A stretch of 64,000 nucleotides of DNA from positions 1 to 64,000 of the forward strand of contig JAJFLA010000019.1 in the NCBI GenBank assembly GCA_021772935.1, in the 5' to 3' direction. The notes below the pieces were generated by a model, which ran no database searches, was not told the origin of the DNA, and saw only the letters and a program-made list of their open reading frames with translations. The position numbers were made by a program, and so were the translations under genes. The first letter of the stretch is position 1; each line of letters opens with the position of its first letter. This DNA comes from Gammaproteobacteria bacterium (GTDB lineage: Bacteria; Pseudomonadota; Gammaproteobacteria; Xanthomonadales; SZUA-36). Positions 13,569-31,200 of this stretch are shown here, piece after piece.

Positions 13569-15578
13569 ATGAGAAATATATTGATCGGGCTAATACTTTT
13601 ATTATTGTCCACTTCATTACAAGCACAGACAATTGTTAACGGCCGACAGAGGCTCAATGTCGACATTAACGACCCGCAAGCATTCGCAGCAGCCTGGGCT
13701 CAGGTAAATGACAACCCCACTCAGCCCGCCACCTTGGTTTTAACTGCCACTGAACCCGGCTCGGATATTGATGAACTCCTGAATTTTGATAAAAACCCAC
13801 TTGGCCCACTCTCTGCTGATGTTTTGATTCTGCCTGGAGATGGTTTGGGAGAGGATCCCAGTTTTTCCGCTACAGGAAATACCGATCCGGTATTTGCTGT
13901 AGCAGCCACCGGCACGCTCGGAATTCATGGCATTGGAGTCGGCCCGTCAGATGCTGGTGGTGTCGTATTGGCAAATGGCGGTCAATTCCACGGTCACGAT
14001 GTAAATTTTCATGACAATACAACCCCAGGTAGTGGCGGCGGTATTTTTTGTGGCGTCAATAGCGAGTGTCAGTGTGATGGATGTCAATTTGAAAACAACC
14101 TTGCCGGTCAAAATGGTGGTGCTTTCAGTTGCCAGCAAGGGGCCACGTGTGATTTCAGTAGTACCACTTTCAGAAATAATGGTGCCGGTGTCTTTGGTTG
14201 CGATATGGATGTTAATGGCGGAAATGTCACAGTGCGCAACGGCGCAGCCACACAAGATCGACCTGCGTGTACAAATACAAGGGTTGAGGTTCCGTCTGGC
14301 AATGTGCTCTGGGGGGACTACTACCTTATGACAGTTAATGGAAACCACGACGCCATTGACTGTACGGGTTTTTGTGAGCTTCACAATACGCTAGTTCATG
14401 TTGAACCTGGAAATTCAACTCCGCGTAGTTTTTTGAACAATACGTCAGGAAATATGCCTGAGCTGGAAAAAGGCGGCTCACTGCAAGGCCAATGTAATGA
14501 TTTTGGATCTGGCGCGATAACTTCACTTGGCTTTAATGTCGATAGCGACAGCAGTTGCTTTTTGAACAAGCCTACTGACCTGCCCAATACCAACCCAATG
14601 ATTGTTGTTGATGCCAACGGTATCCCCCAACCTCAAGCTGGCAGCCCAGTGATCGAGTCTGGCCCAGTTAACTTCGTGAATAATGAACTACCCTGTATCT
14701 ACAAGGACCTGAACGGTCTTGGACGCCCACAGGATTTTGATCTCGACGGTGTGTTTACCTGCGACCGTGGCCCCGTTGAAATCCAGGGTGGACCAGATAT
14801 TGGAGCACCACAAAGTGCGGCCTTTTATGATCTCGACCGCAATGGCGAAGGTGCCTATGTTGAGGTCCTGGAAGACGGCCGTGCAGTGGTTTCTTTTTAT
14901 AGCTATACCATGGATGGCACCGGTCTCGTCTGGATTATCGGTCTGGGCCAGGTGGTGGGAAATTCCGTGGTCATCGATGACATGCAAAGGGTCACAGGCG
15001 GTGTCTTTGGGGCCGGCTTTGATCCAAATACTATCGTCAGGACCACGGTCGGTGGCCTGTCACTGGTATTTCCCGACTGTGATGCCGTTACCAATCCTGG
15101 CAGGCTCAATTTCACTGCTCGCGACGATTCCGGTCTTGAGAACTTGCTACAAAAAGCCAGCCGTCTGACTTCCATTGTTGATTGCGATGGCTCCGCGCCC
15201 GCTGCCAACGCCCATCGAAGCGGTGCATTTTATGCGCCTGACCGCTCAGGTGAAGGTATTTTTGTGCAATGGCTCAGTGATGGCAGGATGGTGTTCGTAT
15301 TTTATACCTTCGATACCGAAGGCAATGCCTTCTGGGTAATCAGCGACGATACCGTTATCAACGGCAACACGGTGACCGCAACCATGGTCTACGCCGCGGG
15401 GAAATCCAAATTTGGGGCCAATTTTAACCCTGCCGAGGTCACCCTCGCACCCTGGGGTACTATTACCCTGACCTACACAGATGACAACAACCTGACCTTT
15501 GCCTACGACTCAGTCTTGGCCGGTTTTGGTACCGGCAGCTATGCTTATACCCGTTTGACAAGCCTGGCAGGTACTTAG
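13569..15578 (+). CDS. Secreted beta-helix protein with two C-terminal GxFYxPDRsGEG domains
   Basis: 669 residues from ATG 13569, preceded by GTAGAGGAGAAACAG. The in-frame GTG at 13533 would put a charged extension ahead of a good signal peptide (RNILIGLILLLLSTSLQAQ) and is less likely. Residues about 95-380 look like a right-handed beta-helix of the polymorphic-outer-membrane/CSLREA type, with repeats such as CDGCQFENNLAGQNGGAFSC. The C-terminus has two copies of a roughly 120-residue domain (about 425-540 and 555-669), each running from AFYxxDRxGEG through WxI to GxFGxxFxP and an aromatic end. The same domain appears in the proteins at 28399 and 29974. Expected role: surface or secreted protein of unknown ligand. 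The stop codon abuts a MITE-like element. Confidence 0.75.
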   Translation: MRNILIGLILLLLSTSLQAQTIVNGRQRLNVDINDPQAFAAAWAQVNDNPTQPATLVLTATEPGSDIDELLNFDKNPLGPLSADVLILPGDGLGEDPSFSATGNTDPVFAVAATGTLGIHGIGVGPSDAGGVVLANGGQFHGHDVNFHDNTTPGSGGGIFCGVNSECQCDGCQFENNLAGQNGGAFSCQQGATCDFSSTTFRNNGAGVFGCDMDVNGGNVTVRNGAATQDRPACTNTRVEVPSGNVLWGDYYLMTVNGNHDAIDCTGFCELHNTLVHVEPGNSTPRSFLNNTSGNMPELEKGGSLQGQCNDFGSGAITSLGFNVDSDSSCFLNKPTDLPNTNPMIVVDANGIPQPQAGSPVIESGPVNFVNNELPCIYKDLNGLGRPQDFDLDGVFTCDRGPVEIQGGPDIGAPQSAAFYDLDRNGEGAYVEVLEDGRAVVSFYSYTMDGTGLVWIIGLGQVVGNSVVIDDMQRVTGGVFGAGFDPNTIVRTTVGGLSLVFPDCDAVTNPGRLNFTARDDSGLENLLQKASRLTSIVDCDGSAPAANAHRSGAFYAPDRSGEGIFVQWLSDGRMVFVFYTFDTEGNAFWVISDDTVINGNTVTATMVYAAGKSKFGANFNPAEVTLAPWGTITLTYTDDNNLTFAYDSVLAGFGTGSYAYTRLTSLAGT

Positions 15579-28238: not shown

Positions 28239-28398
28239 GAAATTGCATGATACTCAATTCGTATCGCAAAATCACAGCACGGAAACCAAACAGTGTCCTT
28301 CGCAAAAATGCGAACAAAAAAAAGAGGGATGCAAAAGACACAGCAAAGGGTATTTCGTTATATTTGGATTTCGTTCAATCAACCCGAAATTGTGAATA

Positions 28399-29712
28399 AT
28401 GAAATCAAAGTTCATATTATTTGTTCTGGCGTACAGTTTGCTGGTCACCACCAAGTTGACCGCGTTGGAACTTACGGCCTGTGATCAGCTGATGCTGATC
28501 AGCGCTTATACCTCGAATAACGTTTACGTGTTCAATGCTTGCGACGGTGAATTTATTCAGGTGCTGGACACCGAAGGAAGGATAAGCGGGGCTCAGGCCA
28601 CGCGAATCGGGCCTGACGGCCAGCTTTATATTGCCAGTGAAATAAACGGAAAAATTCTACGTTACGATAGCAAAACACTGACTTTTATTGACGAATTTTC
28701 CGCAGGCGTTTCAATCAATGAACCAACCGGGCTGGCATTTGGACCGGACGGAGACCTCTATGTCGCCAGCTTCGCTGACGACAAAATTATCAAGCTTGAC
28801 GGGACCACCGGCCAGTATTTGGGTGATTTTGCGAGCGGTATTGATGGGCCAGATGCCGGCATGGTGTTTGGTCCTGCTGGAAAACTGTACGTTCCCTCCT
28901 TTTTCGGTAATAGAATCCATGTGCTGGACGGTGAGTCCGGGGTGCTAGTACATACCATCACGGGGCAACTGAGAAATCCACGGGTGGTGACCTTCGAACC
29001 GGGCAACGGCAGTTTTGTGGTATCGGTATCAGGTTCGGGCAGTATTTCCAGGTACAGCGGAGCCGGTGTTTTCGAAAACTTTGTCACCCAGAGTTTCAAC
29101 TCGGTTTCGGGATTGGCGTACAGAAAAGACGGTGCCCTTTTTGCCATTTCCGACACCAATGGCCGGGCTCGACCGGTTGACCCTGCAAGCGGGGAGATTG
29201 GGGATTTCCTCACCGGGCCGGAAGGTATTTTAGGTGCTACATTTATCACCTTTATGGATTTTGTCAGCGCAGAGCCTGTCAATACCAATCAGTTCTGGGT
29301 GGTGGGAGTCGGGAACATCACCGGTCTGACCATTTCCGTGGACGCCGATGCTTTTGTTTTTGCTAACGGTGGCGTGTTTGGGGACGCGTTTGATCCCACC
29401 AGCGTGGACCTCAGTCCGTTTGGAACATTGGAAATCACACTGATAGCTTGTTCGCAAGCCACTTTGACTTATAACAGCATAGGCAACGCCGGAATGGGGA
29501 GTGGTGGCTACGACCTTGAAAAAATTGGTGGAAACGTATCCCTGGCACAATGCCTGGAGCAGGGCTATGACGAGAACGGCACTTCGATAAACGCGTTAAC
29601 GGGTGCCTGGTTTGGCGGGCCGGACAGAAACGGCGAAGGGTTCTTTGTTGATGTACTGGAGAACGGAACTGCTATCGTCGCCTGGTTTACATTCGGGGCG
29701 GCAAATGGATGA
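28399..29712 (+). CDS. Secreted propeller protein with rearranged C-terminal domain
   Basis: 437 residues. Signal peptide about 1-24 (FILFVLAYSLLVTTKLTA). An NHL/SMP-30-like beta-propeller follows (about 30-290; repeats such as GPDGDLYVASFADDKIIKLD). The C-terminus has pieces of the domain found in the genes at 13569 and 29974, but in reversed order: first the second half (from QFWVVGVG through GGVFGDAFDPTSV to the aromatic end, about 295-385), then only the first half (AWFGGPDRNGEGFFVDVLEN, AWFTF) before a stop. This is either a circularly permuted domain or the remains of two copies after a deletion. Propeller and signal are intact, so the gene may still work. Confidence 0.7.
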   Translation: MKSKFILFVLAYSLLVTTKLTALELTACDQLMLISAYTSNNVYVFNACDGEFIQVLDTEGRISGAQATRIGPDGQLYIASEINGKILRYDSKTLTFIDEFSAGVSINEPTGLAFGPDGDLYVASFADDKIIKLDGTTGQYLGDFASGIDGPDAGMVFGPAGKLYVPSFFGNRIHVLDGESGVLVHTITGQLRNPRVVTFEPGNGSFVVSVSGSGSISRYSGAGVFENFVTQSFNSVSGLAYRKDGALFAISDTNGRARPVDPASGEIGDFLTGPEGILGATFITFMDFVSAEPVNTNQFWVVGVGNITGLTISVDADAFVFANGGVFGDAFDPTSVDLSPFGTLEITLIACSQATLTYNSIGNAGMGSGGYDLEKIGGNVSLAQCLEQGYDENGTSINALTGAWFGGPDRNGEGFFVDVLENGTAIVAWFTFGAANG

Positions 29713-29788
29713 GATAATGAAAACACCGCGTTAGAACGCTCTCGTCACCCATGAATTCTTGAATCGAAACACGTGGCTGTCTTCACTG

Positions 29789-29971
29789 TCAGTCGTCTTC
29801 GTCTTCACTTTCATTAACCAGAGGTGTCACTCCTTGTTTGACTGCAGCCCGACTCGTCATTCTGTCTCGCCAGGCCATCAGTCGTGGGGTGGCTTCGGTC
29901 ATCAGAGCGGATTTGCGCTCGGTAAAAACCCGTGCCATGTAAAATGCGATGTCAGTAGAGGATACACACAA
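29789..29971 (-). pseudogene. Glutathione S-transferase remnant (C-terminal domain only)
   Basis: The leftward frame reads STDIAFYMARVFTER, then MTEATPRLMAWRDRMTSR and AAVKQG, which is the last helical part of a bacterial glutathione S-transferase. The thioredoxin-like N-terminal domain with the glutathione site is missing; upstream of about 29963 the sequence belongs to the gene starting at 29974 on the other strand. The first codon is TTG with no ribosome site. An acidic tail (NESEDEDD) ends it. It is a relic left by a rearrangement and should not be active. Confidence 0.65.
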
Positions 29972-29973
29972 AC

Positions 29974-31200
29974 GTGAAAAACGATTGGCTCCTTGTGTTC
30001 TTAATTATTTCAATTTCTTCCGCCTTCACCGGAGGAACGATTTGTGTCGCTAGTGCCAATTCAGACGAAAGCCCCCATTCCTCCGAATCAATTAATACCT
30101 ACCAATTACTGTTCGTTGGCAACAGTCATAGTAGCGCGAATGGACTACCTGATCTCGTGACGGCTATGATTGAAGCTGGCTCACCCGGTAGCTCAGCACA
30201 TTCTGAATTAGCCCCTGGATCAGGTTTCCTGTCAGACAGGCTGGAAACTGTTGAGACTCAGCAAAGTTTGGAAAGTCGGGCCTGGACCCATGTCATTTTG
30301 CAAGCGCAAAAGTACTCGTCTTCAGGCCTTTACTTCTATCCAACTGATGCCGCAGAAGAATGGATTCGTCGGGTGAAGGCAAGAAACGCTCATCCCATTT
30401 TATTCCCCGAGTGGCCGCGCAAAGGGAACACTGAGGAAGGCCCCAGAATCCATGATTTGCATCTTGGCATCGCTTCCCGTGAACCGGCCTGTGTTGCACC
30501 GGTGGGATTGGCATGGGAGGAATCAATCAGGTCCTATCCAGCACTGGATTTACATTTCGCTGACGGCAATCACTCAAATATCAATGGCGCAACGTTAACG
30601 GCTTTTGTTTTTTATCAGCTGATCACCGGGCAGTCCGCTGCTGAGTTGCCTCCAATTCCAGGGATTGATGTGAGTGAATTTACCCAACGGAAACTACGGG
30701 AAATCGCTACTGAGATTGTAAATGAAAACTCGGCTACTTGCGCCGATATGGGTAGTGAAGTTTTTCAAATTAACGCCGGCCTGAACGATGCTTGGTATTA
30801 CCCTGATACCGATGGACAAGGGTTCTTCATCACAGTATTTCCTGATCTGGGTAAAGTGTCGTTGGCGTGGTTCACCTATGACACAGAATTGCCACCTGAA
30901 GGTGCAACCTCCAACCTGGGTAGTCCCGGTCATCGTTGGATCACGGCTGGGGGTACGTATATCGGTAACCAGGCAGTGATGGAAATAGTACTTACTTCTG
31001 GTGGTCTCTTTGACACTCCTGGCGAGGTGCGGCGCACTGACCCGGCTGGTTCAGATGGCACAATAATATTGACATTTGATAGTTGTAATTCGGCCACTAT
31101 TGAGTACGACATTCCCTCAATCAACCGCCAGGGAACTGTGCCCATACAACGTGTTGCCGGCGATAATGTCGCGATTTGCGAAGCACTCGGCGCAGATTAA
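29974..31200 (+). CDS. Secreted SGNH-like hydrolase with C-terminal repeat domain
   Basis: 408 residues from GTG 29974. Signal peptide about 1-28 (LLVFLIISISSAFTGG). Block I of the SGNH fold is LLFVGNSHSSANG (Ser51), and block V is HFADGNHSNINGA with Asp and His. Block II Gly and block III Asn are less clear. The C-terminal domain (about 265-405) is one complete copy of the family shared with 13569 and 28399: DAWYYPDTDGQGFFITV, AWFTYD, GGLFDTPG and FDSCNSATIEYD. Likely an extracellular esterase or acetyl-hydrolase with a surface or carbohydrate-binding module; substrate unknown. Confidence 0.75.
   Translation: MKNDWLLVFLIISISSAFTGGTICVASANSDESPHSSESINTYQLLFVGNSHSSANGLPDLVTAMIEAGSPGSSAHSELAPGSGFLSDRLETVETQQSLESRAWTHVILQAQKYSSSGLYFYPTDAAEEWIRRVKARNAHPILFPEWPRKGNTEEGPRIHDLHLGIASREPACVAPVGLAWEESIRSYPALDLHFADGNHSNINGATLTAFVFYQLITGQSAAELPPIPGIDVSEFTQRKLREIATEIVNENSATCADMGSEVFQINAGLNDAWYYPDTDGQGFFITVFPDLGKVSLAWFTYDTELPPEGATSNLGSPGHRWITAGGTYIGNQAVMEIVLTSGGLFDTPGEVRRTDPAGSDGTIILTFDSCNSATIEYDIPSINRQGTVPIQRVAGDNVAICEALGAD

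Follow-up and report, generated by a model that had tools for sequence, protein, structure and literature searches.

Three proteins encoded in the window, the whole 64,000-nucleotide stretch of DNA analysed here (contig JAJFLA010000019.1 of a gammaproteobacterium of the order Xanthomonadales), were originally noticed to share a C-terminal domain composed of two segments, A and B. In two of them A was read before B; in the third, encoded at 28399-29712, B was read first and A last, with a stop codon close behind. The question raised by this locus is whether the B-A order represents a natural circular permutation of the domain or a recent defect of one gene.

The ORF at 28399-29712 (plus strand) encodes 437 amino acids and, according to the ORF list and profile searches, comprises a signal peptide, a beta-propeller and then the B-A domain in a C-terminal stretch of approximately 143 residues. 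The other two ORFs of the family extend from 13533 (inner start 13569) to 15578 and from 29974 to 31200. The features of these genes were as follows.

28399..29712, plus strand: whole gene, with a signal peptide (read by eye), an NHL/WD40-type beta-propeller and the putatively permuted B-A domain
28471..29262, plus strand: beta-propeller, approximately residues 25-288, matched by propeller families and WD40/NHL structures; boundary set by alignment
29287..29526, plus strand: segment B, placed first, predicted barrel strands 4-8 (B profile i-E 1.5e-16; model strands E10-20 to E80-89)
29449..29451, plus strand: conserved Cys 351, after predicted strand 6, candidate disulfide partner, invariant in the B-A alignment
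29527..29601, plus strand: linker from the presumed old C-terminus (strand 8) to the presumed old N-terminus (strand 1), placed by the model and by the B-to-A gap in 36 proteins
29551..29553, plus strand: conserved Cys 385, in the predicted linker helix, candidate disulfide partner, invariant in the B-A alignment
29602..29694, plus strand: segment A, placed last, predicted barrel strands 1-3 (A profile i-E 3.3e-11; model strands E114-117, E126-131 and E136-144)
14820..15185, plus strand: first A-B copy in the 13533 protein, in the usual A-then-B order, by the A-B profile
15222..15572, plus strand: second A-B copy (copy 2) in the 13533 protein, in the usual A-then-B order, by the A-B profile and model; forms the core of the stretch modelled for A-B (15207-15575)
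29974..30760, plus strand: N-domain of the neighbouring gene, end approximate, presumably SGNH-hydrolase-like, homologous to an N-domain that bears B-A elsewhere
30790..31161, plus strand: A-B domain of the 29974 protein, usual order with a long A-to-B loop, by the A-B profile

Propeller profiles matched the 28399 protein within residues 19-268. The N-terminal part was hit by the WDR5 propeller (E 2e-8), Vgb_lyase (3.1e-8) and ANAPC4_WD40 (3.2e-8), only the last passing its cut-off, and by the WD40 structure 2ymu with an E value of 1.2e-44; profile matching classes it as an NHL/Vgb/WD40-type beta-propeller. The N-domain of the 29974 protein is one that we take to be SGNH-hydrolase-like from a motif, with no Pfam match.

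A 119-position A-B profile was aligned to each window protein and found the domain in all three, as first noticed. In the 28399 protein, profile positions 33-112 were followed by 1-31, the order switching at position 31-33, and segment A was followed by five residues and then the stop. The 13533 protein aligned with positions 2-117 followed by 1-116, two A-B copies that give the window itself an A-B-A-B tandem of the kind surmised at the outset, and the 29974 protein with positions 2-113, which confirms the usual order in these two. Separate A and B profiles were then built from 32 A-B copies, with the B-A proteins kept out of training; on the L001 copy of the 28399 gene the B match (i-E 1.5e-16) preceded the A match (3.3e-11).

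Scanning of 1328 ORFs gave 160 A matches (i-E <1e-2) and 159 B matches (<1e-3), and no matches were obtained with the two profiles on shuffled and reversed ORFs. Sorted by segment order there were 50 A-B-A-B, 36 B-A, 18 A-B, 3 A, 2 B, 1 B-A-B and 1 A-B-A ORFs, or 31 tandems, 36 B-A and 18 A-B as distinct segments, several tandem genes being represented more than once in overlapping loci. The B-A-B and A-B-A ORFs derive from a pair of adjacent tandem genes on contig C46 and are truncated where L004 and L008 end. The ORFs came from searches with the B-A protein and the A-B profile, and these counts describe the sample rather than natural frequencies. The tail after the A match measured 1-15 residues in all 36 B-A proteins; in a set of 32 B-A proteins the chain ended 1-11 residues past A. 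A 295-aa ORF elsewhere in the same genome (L139:1401-2285; contig C11, about 69.9-70.8 kb) gave an A match at i-E 1.9e-8 with no B called, and may be a very diverged form of the domain.

A recent defect, that is, a complete A-B or A-B-A-B truncated in this genome by deletion or frameshift, would account for a gene that stops right past A in a genome in which A-B-A-B tandems are common. Against it, a paralogue 69% identical and 44 kb distant on the same contig is likewise B-A with a stop shortly past A, the order recurs in 36 distinct proteins, and the tail after A is short in every one. Searching the flanks 28239-28398 and 29713-29973 for leftover A or B yielded none (best E 0.4). Between the two paralogues pN was 0.20 and pS 0.69 over B-A, with synonymous sites near saturation, and 0.13 and 0.92 over segment A, a contrast suggesting that the permuted form is under purifying selection. 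Homologues with a complete A-B domain, which together with a lesion here had been named as the sign of a defect, do exist (some propellers bear A-B, and four of these nest inside the B-A propellers), but the B-A form itself is intact and shared. We consider that a recent defect has next to no likelihood; a recent truncation or frameshift is ruled out by the conserved B-A order.

The homologue search suggested at the outset found B-A in many genera. Among 398 genomes of the order, 45 had a match to the 28399 protein with E <=1e-20; 35 matches in 34 genomes were near full length (from residue <=31 to >=432), the gene itself and its paralogue included. A search of 369 genomes drawn from the class gave matches in 2, of which one was the window's own genome and the other belonged to the same order; both searches scored no more than 4 candidates per genome. 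The A-B profile matched 110 of 151 genomes of the order, several with at least 29 matches, and 3 of 274 class genomes, two of them outside the order. Named relatives, from 17 loci, belong to Xanthomonadales/Lysobacterales, to Gammaproteobacteria metagenome genomes, one of which is labelled Alcanivoracaceae, and to Marinicella species, including the cultured Marinicella litoralis KMM 3900, which has B-A. The B-A order is thus inherited and kept in many genera of one order, and is not the mark of a single broken gene. A few sequences in the set had irregularities of their own. L054, one of the 35 near-full-length matches, has a single in-frame TGA inside the matched stretch; at L133:429-1765 (G053 contig C56) a propeller B-A gene lies in two overlapping frames, which indicates a broken gene or an assembly error; and the long open frames before the B-A genes of L058 (922 aa) and L047 (772 aa) probably lie upstream of the true start codons.

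Structure prediction was carried out for both orders. AlphaFold2 predicted the B-A stretch alone (29263-29709, 16 sequences) as a compact domain with a pLDDT of 88.7 and a pTM of 0.83. The top structure match of this model was circularly permuted streptavidin 1swg (Z 9.8, 106 residues, 3.1 A), accompanied by other permuted streptavidins (4gd9, Z 9.2; 4gda, 9.0; 1swf, 8.8), the DUF3224 protein 2q03 (8.6) and permuted avidin 2jgs (8.4), and then the PloI4 cyclase (7.6); among the 50 matches listed, the native avidins 4ggr, 3szj, 3szh, 3szi, 3ew1 and 3t2x scored 4.2-4.7. Foldseek also placed 1swf first (E 0.019).

The A-B copy of the 13533 protein (15207-15575) was modelled from only 4 sequences because two viral-contig searches for A-B relatives yielded none; its pLDDT was 74.1 and its pTM 0.69, and the other four models reached 63-66. 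In the predicted models the strands of A-B were identical to those of B-A, in rotated order. The A-B model matched native-order streptavidin variants (4jnj, Z 9.1; 3wzo, 9.0) in order over nearly the whole model, and rhizavidin (8.8), afifavidin (8.8) and avidin (8.3), the avidin-type range being 8.2-9.1; no entry labelled as a permutant was among the 50 matches listed. Designed barrels (Z up to 10.2) and Cap15 (9.8) exceeded the avidins, and nitrophorin 2 gave 8.4. In Foldseek nitrophorin 4 came first (E 0.0022) and retinol-binding proteins stood ahead of streptavidin (rank 20, E 0.031). Neither model had a Foldseek match with E <0.001.

Eight-stranded meander barrels are nearly rotation-symmetric and resemble one another, and models with no clear match or kinship commonly reach a best Z of 7-8; the matches therefore fix the topology better than the family. 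The domain in both orders is predicted to resemble an eight-stranded barrel of the avidin/lipocalin type, other meander barrels matching too, and the two models agree with one shared fold. A sequential aligner favours a permuted target only for a permuted chain, so the crossed matches, B-A nearest the engineered permutants and A-B matching the unpermuted versions, are the outcome that a circular permutation would give. With an order kept in many genera and the signature of selection, these modelled folds support the permutation that had been proposed: we regard B-A as very probably a natural circular permutation, cut at loop 3-4, of a predicted eight-stranded antiparallel avidin/lipocalin-type barrel.

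In the alignment to 1swg, residues 11 to 144 of the B-A model ran from 52 to 46 of the chain (residue 11 on 52, residue 144 on 46), which would put the new termini in loop 3-4, the cut site of engineered permuted streptavidin. In the usual order the chain would enter strand 1, with A forming strands 1-3 and B strands 4-8; in B-A it would enter strand 4, pass through strand 8, return by the linker to strand 1 and end past strand 3. The gap from B to A was 15-33 residues in the 36 B-A proteins, and in the model the linker is a predicted helix carrying the second of two conserved Cys. That Cys probably pairs with the Cys after strand 6, and a disulfide between Cys 351 and Cys 385 may pin the linker to the barrel. 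The pair occurred in every one of the 36 B-A proteins and, over all B segments, in 112 of 116; both Cys were absent together in three, including copy 2 of the 13533 protein, and one lacked the second Cys in the extract used. Copy 2 of the 13533 protein (15222-15575) and the second copies of related tandems in L008 and L015 have lost both Cys. At the position of the lipocalin G-x-W motif at strand 1, G108 was invariant in 32 of 32 B-A rows, and the aromatic residue varied.

Barrels with this topology have their native termini at one end and loop 3-4 at the other, so the permutation should move the point of attachment from the base of the barrel to its mouth. In a B-A barrel the partner domain would then sit at the mouth, and the cut would leave the lid loop 3-4 open. 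A circularly permuted streptavidin from which loop 3-4 had been removed had a biotin affinity lower by approximately six orders of magnitude, according to PMC7385176. Why a permutation at this loop was kept across the order can be suggested only tentatively: perhaps it was retained because the module is thereby turned round, with a tether at the ligand mouth, an open lid and a second geometry that can be exchanged on the same partner.

The same data could also be read as A and B being separate small units that pair between chains in B-A, as a swapped dimer, or stay apart. Segments do occur in either order, a few ORFs contain lone segments (3 A and 2 B), and single-chain prediction is blind to the difference between an intra-chain barrel and a swapped dimer. 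Against this, A and B were equal in number in 104 of the 111 classified ORFs, 2 of the other 7 being cut by locus ends, and the B-A stretch alone was predicted with high confidence as a single compact domain. We consider separate units quite improbable.

When the B segments were placed in a tree, the B-A proteins fell on one side of a single branch, with SH-aLRT support of 96 for 36 rows and 99 for 41 rows; the tree has few columns, many open forks and no trustworthy root. Sequence comparison establishes the swapped order, its conservation and this single branch. B-A was found on three N-domains: the propeller; a domain in L069/L082 (which contain the same proteins) and L131 that we presume to be SGNH-hydrolase-like from a motif, with no Pfam match; and an HExxH domain (L128, L129/L089 and L130) that resembles a metallopeptidase when read by eye and for which Pfam gave nothing in L129. 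The N-domain of the 29974 protein, which carries A-B, is homologous to that of L131, which carries B-A (24% over 214 residues, E 3e-15, single comparison). Propellers with A-B occur in L134-L137, both segments being called by profile in L137 only, since in L134-L136 A was below the profile threshold and was read by eye, and also in the more distant L048-L050. Both orders therefore occur on two N-domains judged homologous by alignment, the propeller and the SGNH-like domain.

Several gene neighbourhoods were observed in addition. A propeller B-A gene adjoins an SGNH-like gene in the window at 28399-31200, where the SGNH-like gene bears A-B, and in L069/L082 and L131, where it bears B-A; no such pair was found in a search of the other loci and their short flanks. 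In a genome of the same genus (L020:2935-4209 and L088:4432-4848) a protein with a long-loop A-B, which we take from a motif to be FG-GAP/UnbV-like, adjoins a propeller B-A gene.

The 45 propeller rows comprised 34 with B-A, 7 with A-B or B, and 4 with neither segment called (including L138). The propellers of L134-L137 nest inside the B-A propellers, beside L061 (SH-aLRT 99). In the B tree, the B segments of L134-L137 lie apart from the B-A branch (99%). This speaks for replacement of the domain rather than return to A-B in place, but holding them together with B-A was not rejected (AU p 0.742). The simplest reading is that one permutation occurred, that B-A spread to other partners, and that B-A was later replaced by A-B in one sublineage.

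The opposite polarity, with B-A original and A-B permuted, gains from the same nesting, which makes B-A the older state among the closest propellers with four propeller-A-B rows within, and from the lack of a trustworthy root. It has to contend with the greater frequency and diversity of A-B (matches in 110 of 151 genomes as compared with 45 of 398 at E 1e-20, thresholds that differ), with B-A forming one branch, and with the A-B on the more distant propellers of L048-L050. We judge B-A as the original order unlikely.

Permutation through a tandem, in which duplication gave A-B-A-B and its outer halves were then lost so that B1-A2 remained, stands at about an even chance. A-B-A-B is the commonest form among the classified ORFs (50, of which 31 distinct), and the gap from B1 to A2 in tandems, 11-26 residues, overlaps the 15-33 residues of the B-A linker, in keeping with the classic route by duplication and outer-half loss. 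Against this route, the B of B-A scored higher to second copies than to first copies in 32 of 36 proteins, the A showed no second-copy preference (18 of 36), and no intermediate form was present among the 45 propeller proteins. Single A-B copies also lean to the second-copy profiles (14 of 18 each for A and B), so the score test does not discriminate. Outer-half loss from A-B-A-B, originally put forward as an alternative to circular permutation, is better seen as a possible route to it; the origin test lent that route no support, and a tandem origin is plausible.

As to the role of the domain, 10 proteins were scanned for partner domains. A zinc carboxypeptidase M14 (L014), CARDB (L018) and a multihaem cytochrome c (L016) passed their Pfam cut-offs, and a thrombospondin-type repeat (L010) and a bacterial Ig-like domain (L009) fell just below. 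Tandem ORFs ended <=7 residues past the last B match in 39 of 50 cases and had 270-800 residues beyond it in 11; on these figures a binding or docking module is likelier than a C-terminal sorting signal. The domain might be a secreted binding or docking module on envelope or extracellular proteins, the permuted form showing the other barrel end to its partner, a role to which we give somewhat less than an even chance. Carbohydrate binding was considered and set aside: CBM_56 matched 5 of 32 A-B copies with a best E of 0.025 and L014 at 0.0044, and Cbm74 matched L129 at 0.0062; the L014 and L129 matches were below their cut-offs, and all of these hints were weak. In the same genome, three ORFs of 130-166 aa (L011:65-415, 624-974 and 2057-2407; contig C39), each with a lone A-B, are clustered upstream of a larger tandem A-B-A-B protein, and the barrel may also exist as a separate protein.

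The presence of both orders in one genome and on homologous partners provides a useful test case of whether permutation is neutral or changes function, and comparison of propeller-A-B with propeller-B-A proteins could answer the question of neutrality directly. The predicted avidin/lipocalin-like barrel would also give a first lead on many secreted proteins that lack annotation.

The domain was compared with known families. No consistent Pfam match was found for it, and no NCBIfam match covered it in the window proteins. The native order of the avidin family (PF01382) is matched by the predicted A-B structure over nearly the whole model. PF01382 gave no match in the 28399 protein (Pfam, E up to 1) or in 32 A-B copies (E 0.1), and profile-profile comparison with avidin gave a probability <1% with shallow alignments, the avidin profile consisting of 9 sequences from 9 of the 15 loci L113-L127, which leaves room for a remote link. 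PF01382 itself occurs in 1 of 151 genomes of the order and is absent from the window's own. On these negative Pfam and profile-profile results the domain is not filed as avidin.

Lipocalins are the other family approached by the models, through nitrophorin 4 at the top of the Foldseek list for predicted A-B and through nitrophorin 2 (Z 8.4). A G-x-W at strand 1 is the lipocalin/calycin motif, and around G-x-W the A portion of the B-A profile bears a weak resemblance to the start of retinol-binding protein (E 0.019-0.83). An unrelated ribosome-inactivating protein scored E 0.018 with the A-B profile, which puts the best retinol-binding match (0.019) at noise level. The domain differs from lipocalins in being bacterial and in having its own conserved Cys pair.

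The closest structural parallels are the engineered permuted streptavidins (1swf, 1swg, 4gd9 and 4gda) and the avidin permutant 2jgs, which likewise start at strand 4, end past strand 3 and are cut at loop 3-4. Those permutants are laboratory constructs of biotin-binding proteins, whereas the B-A domain is natural and joined to other secreted domains. A search of titles and abstract openings in the open-licence literature showed no natural circular permutant described for an avidin- or lipocalin-type barrel. Known natural permutations include, among the references of PMC2213659, swaposins, the GTPases YjeQ/YloQ and a permuted jellyroll glucanase, in which the same domain appears in permuted order, as here. 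The present case belongs to this known phenomenon of natural circular permutation; it differs in concerning an unnamed domain family, with both orders in one genome and on homologous partner domains, and it looks like a natural counterpart of permuted streptavidin.
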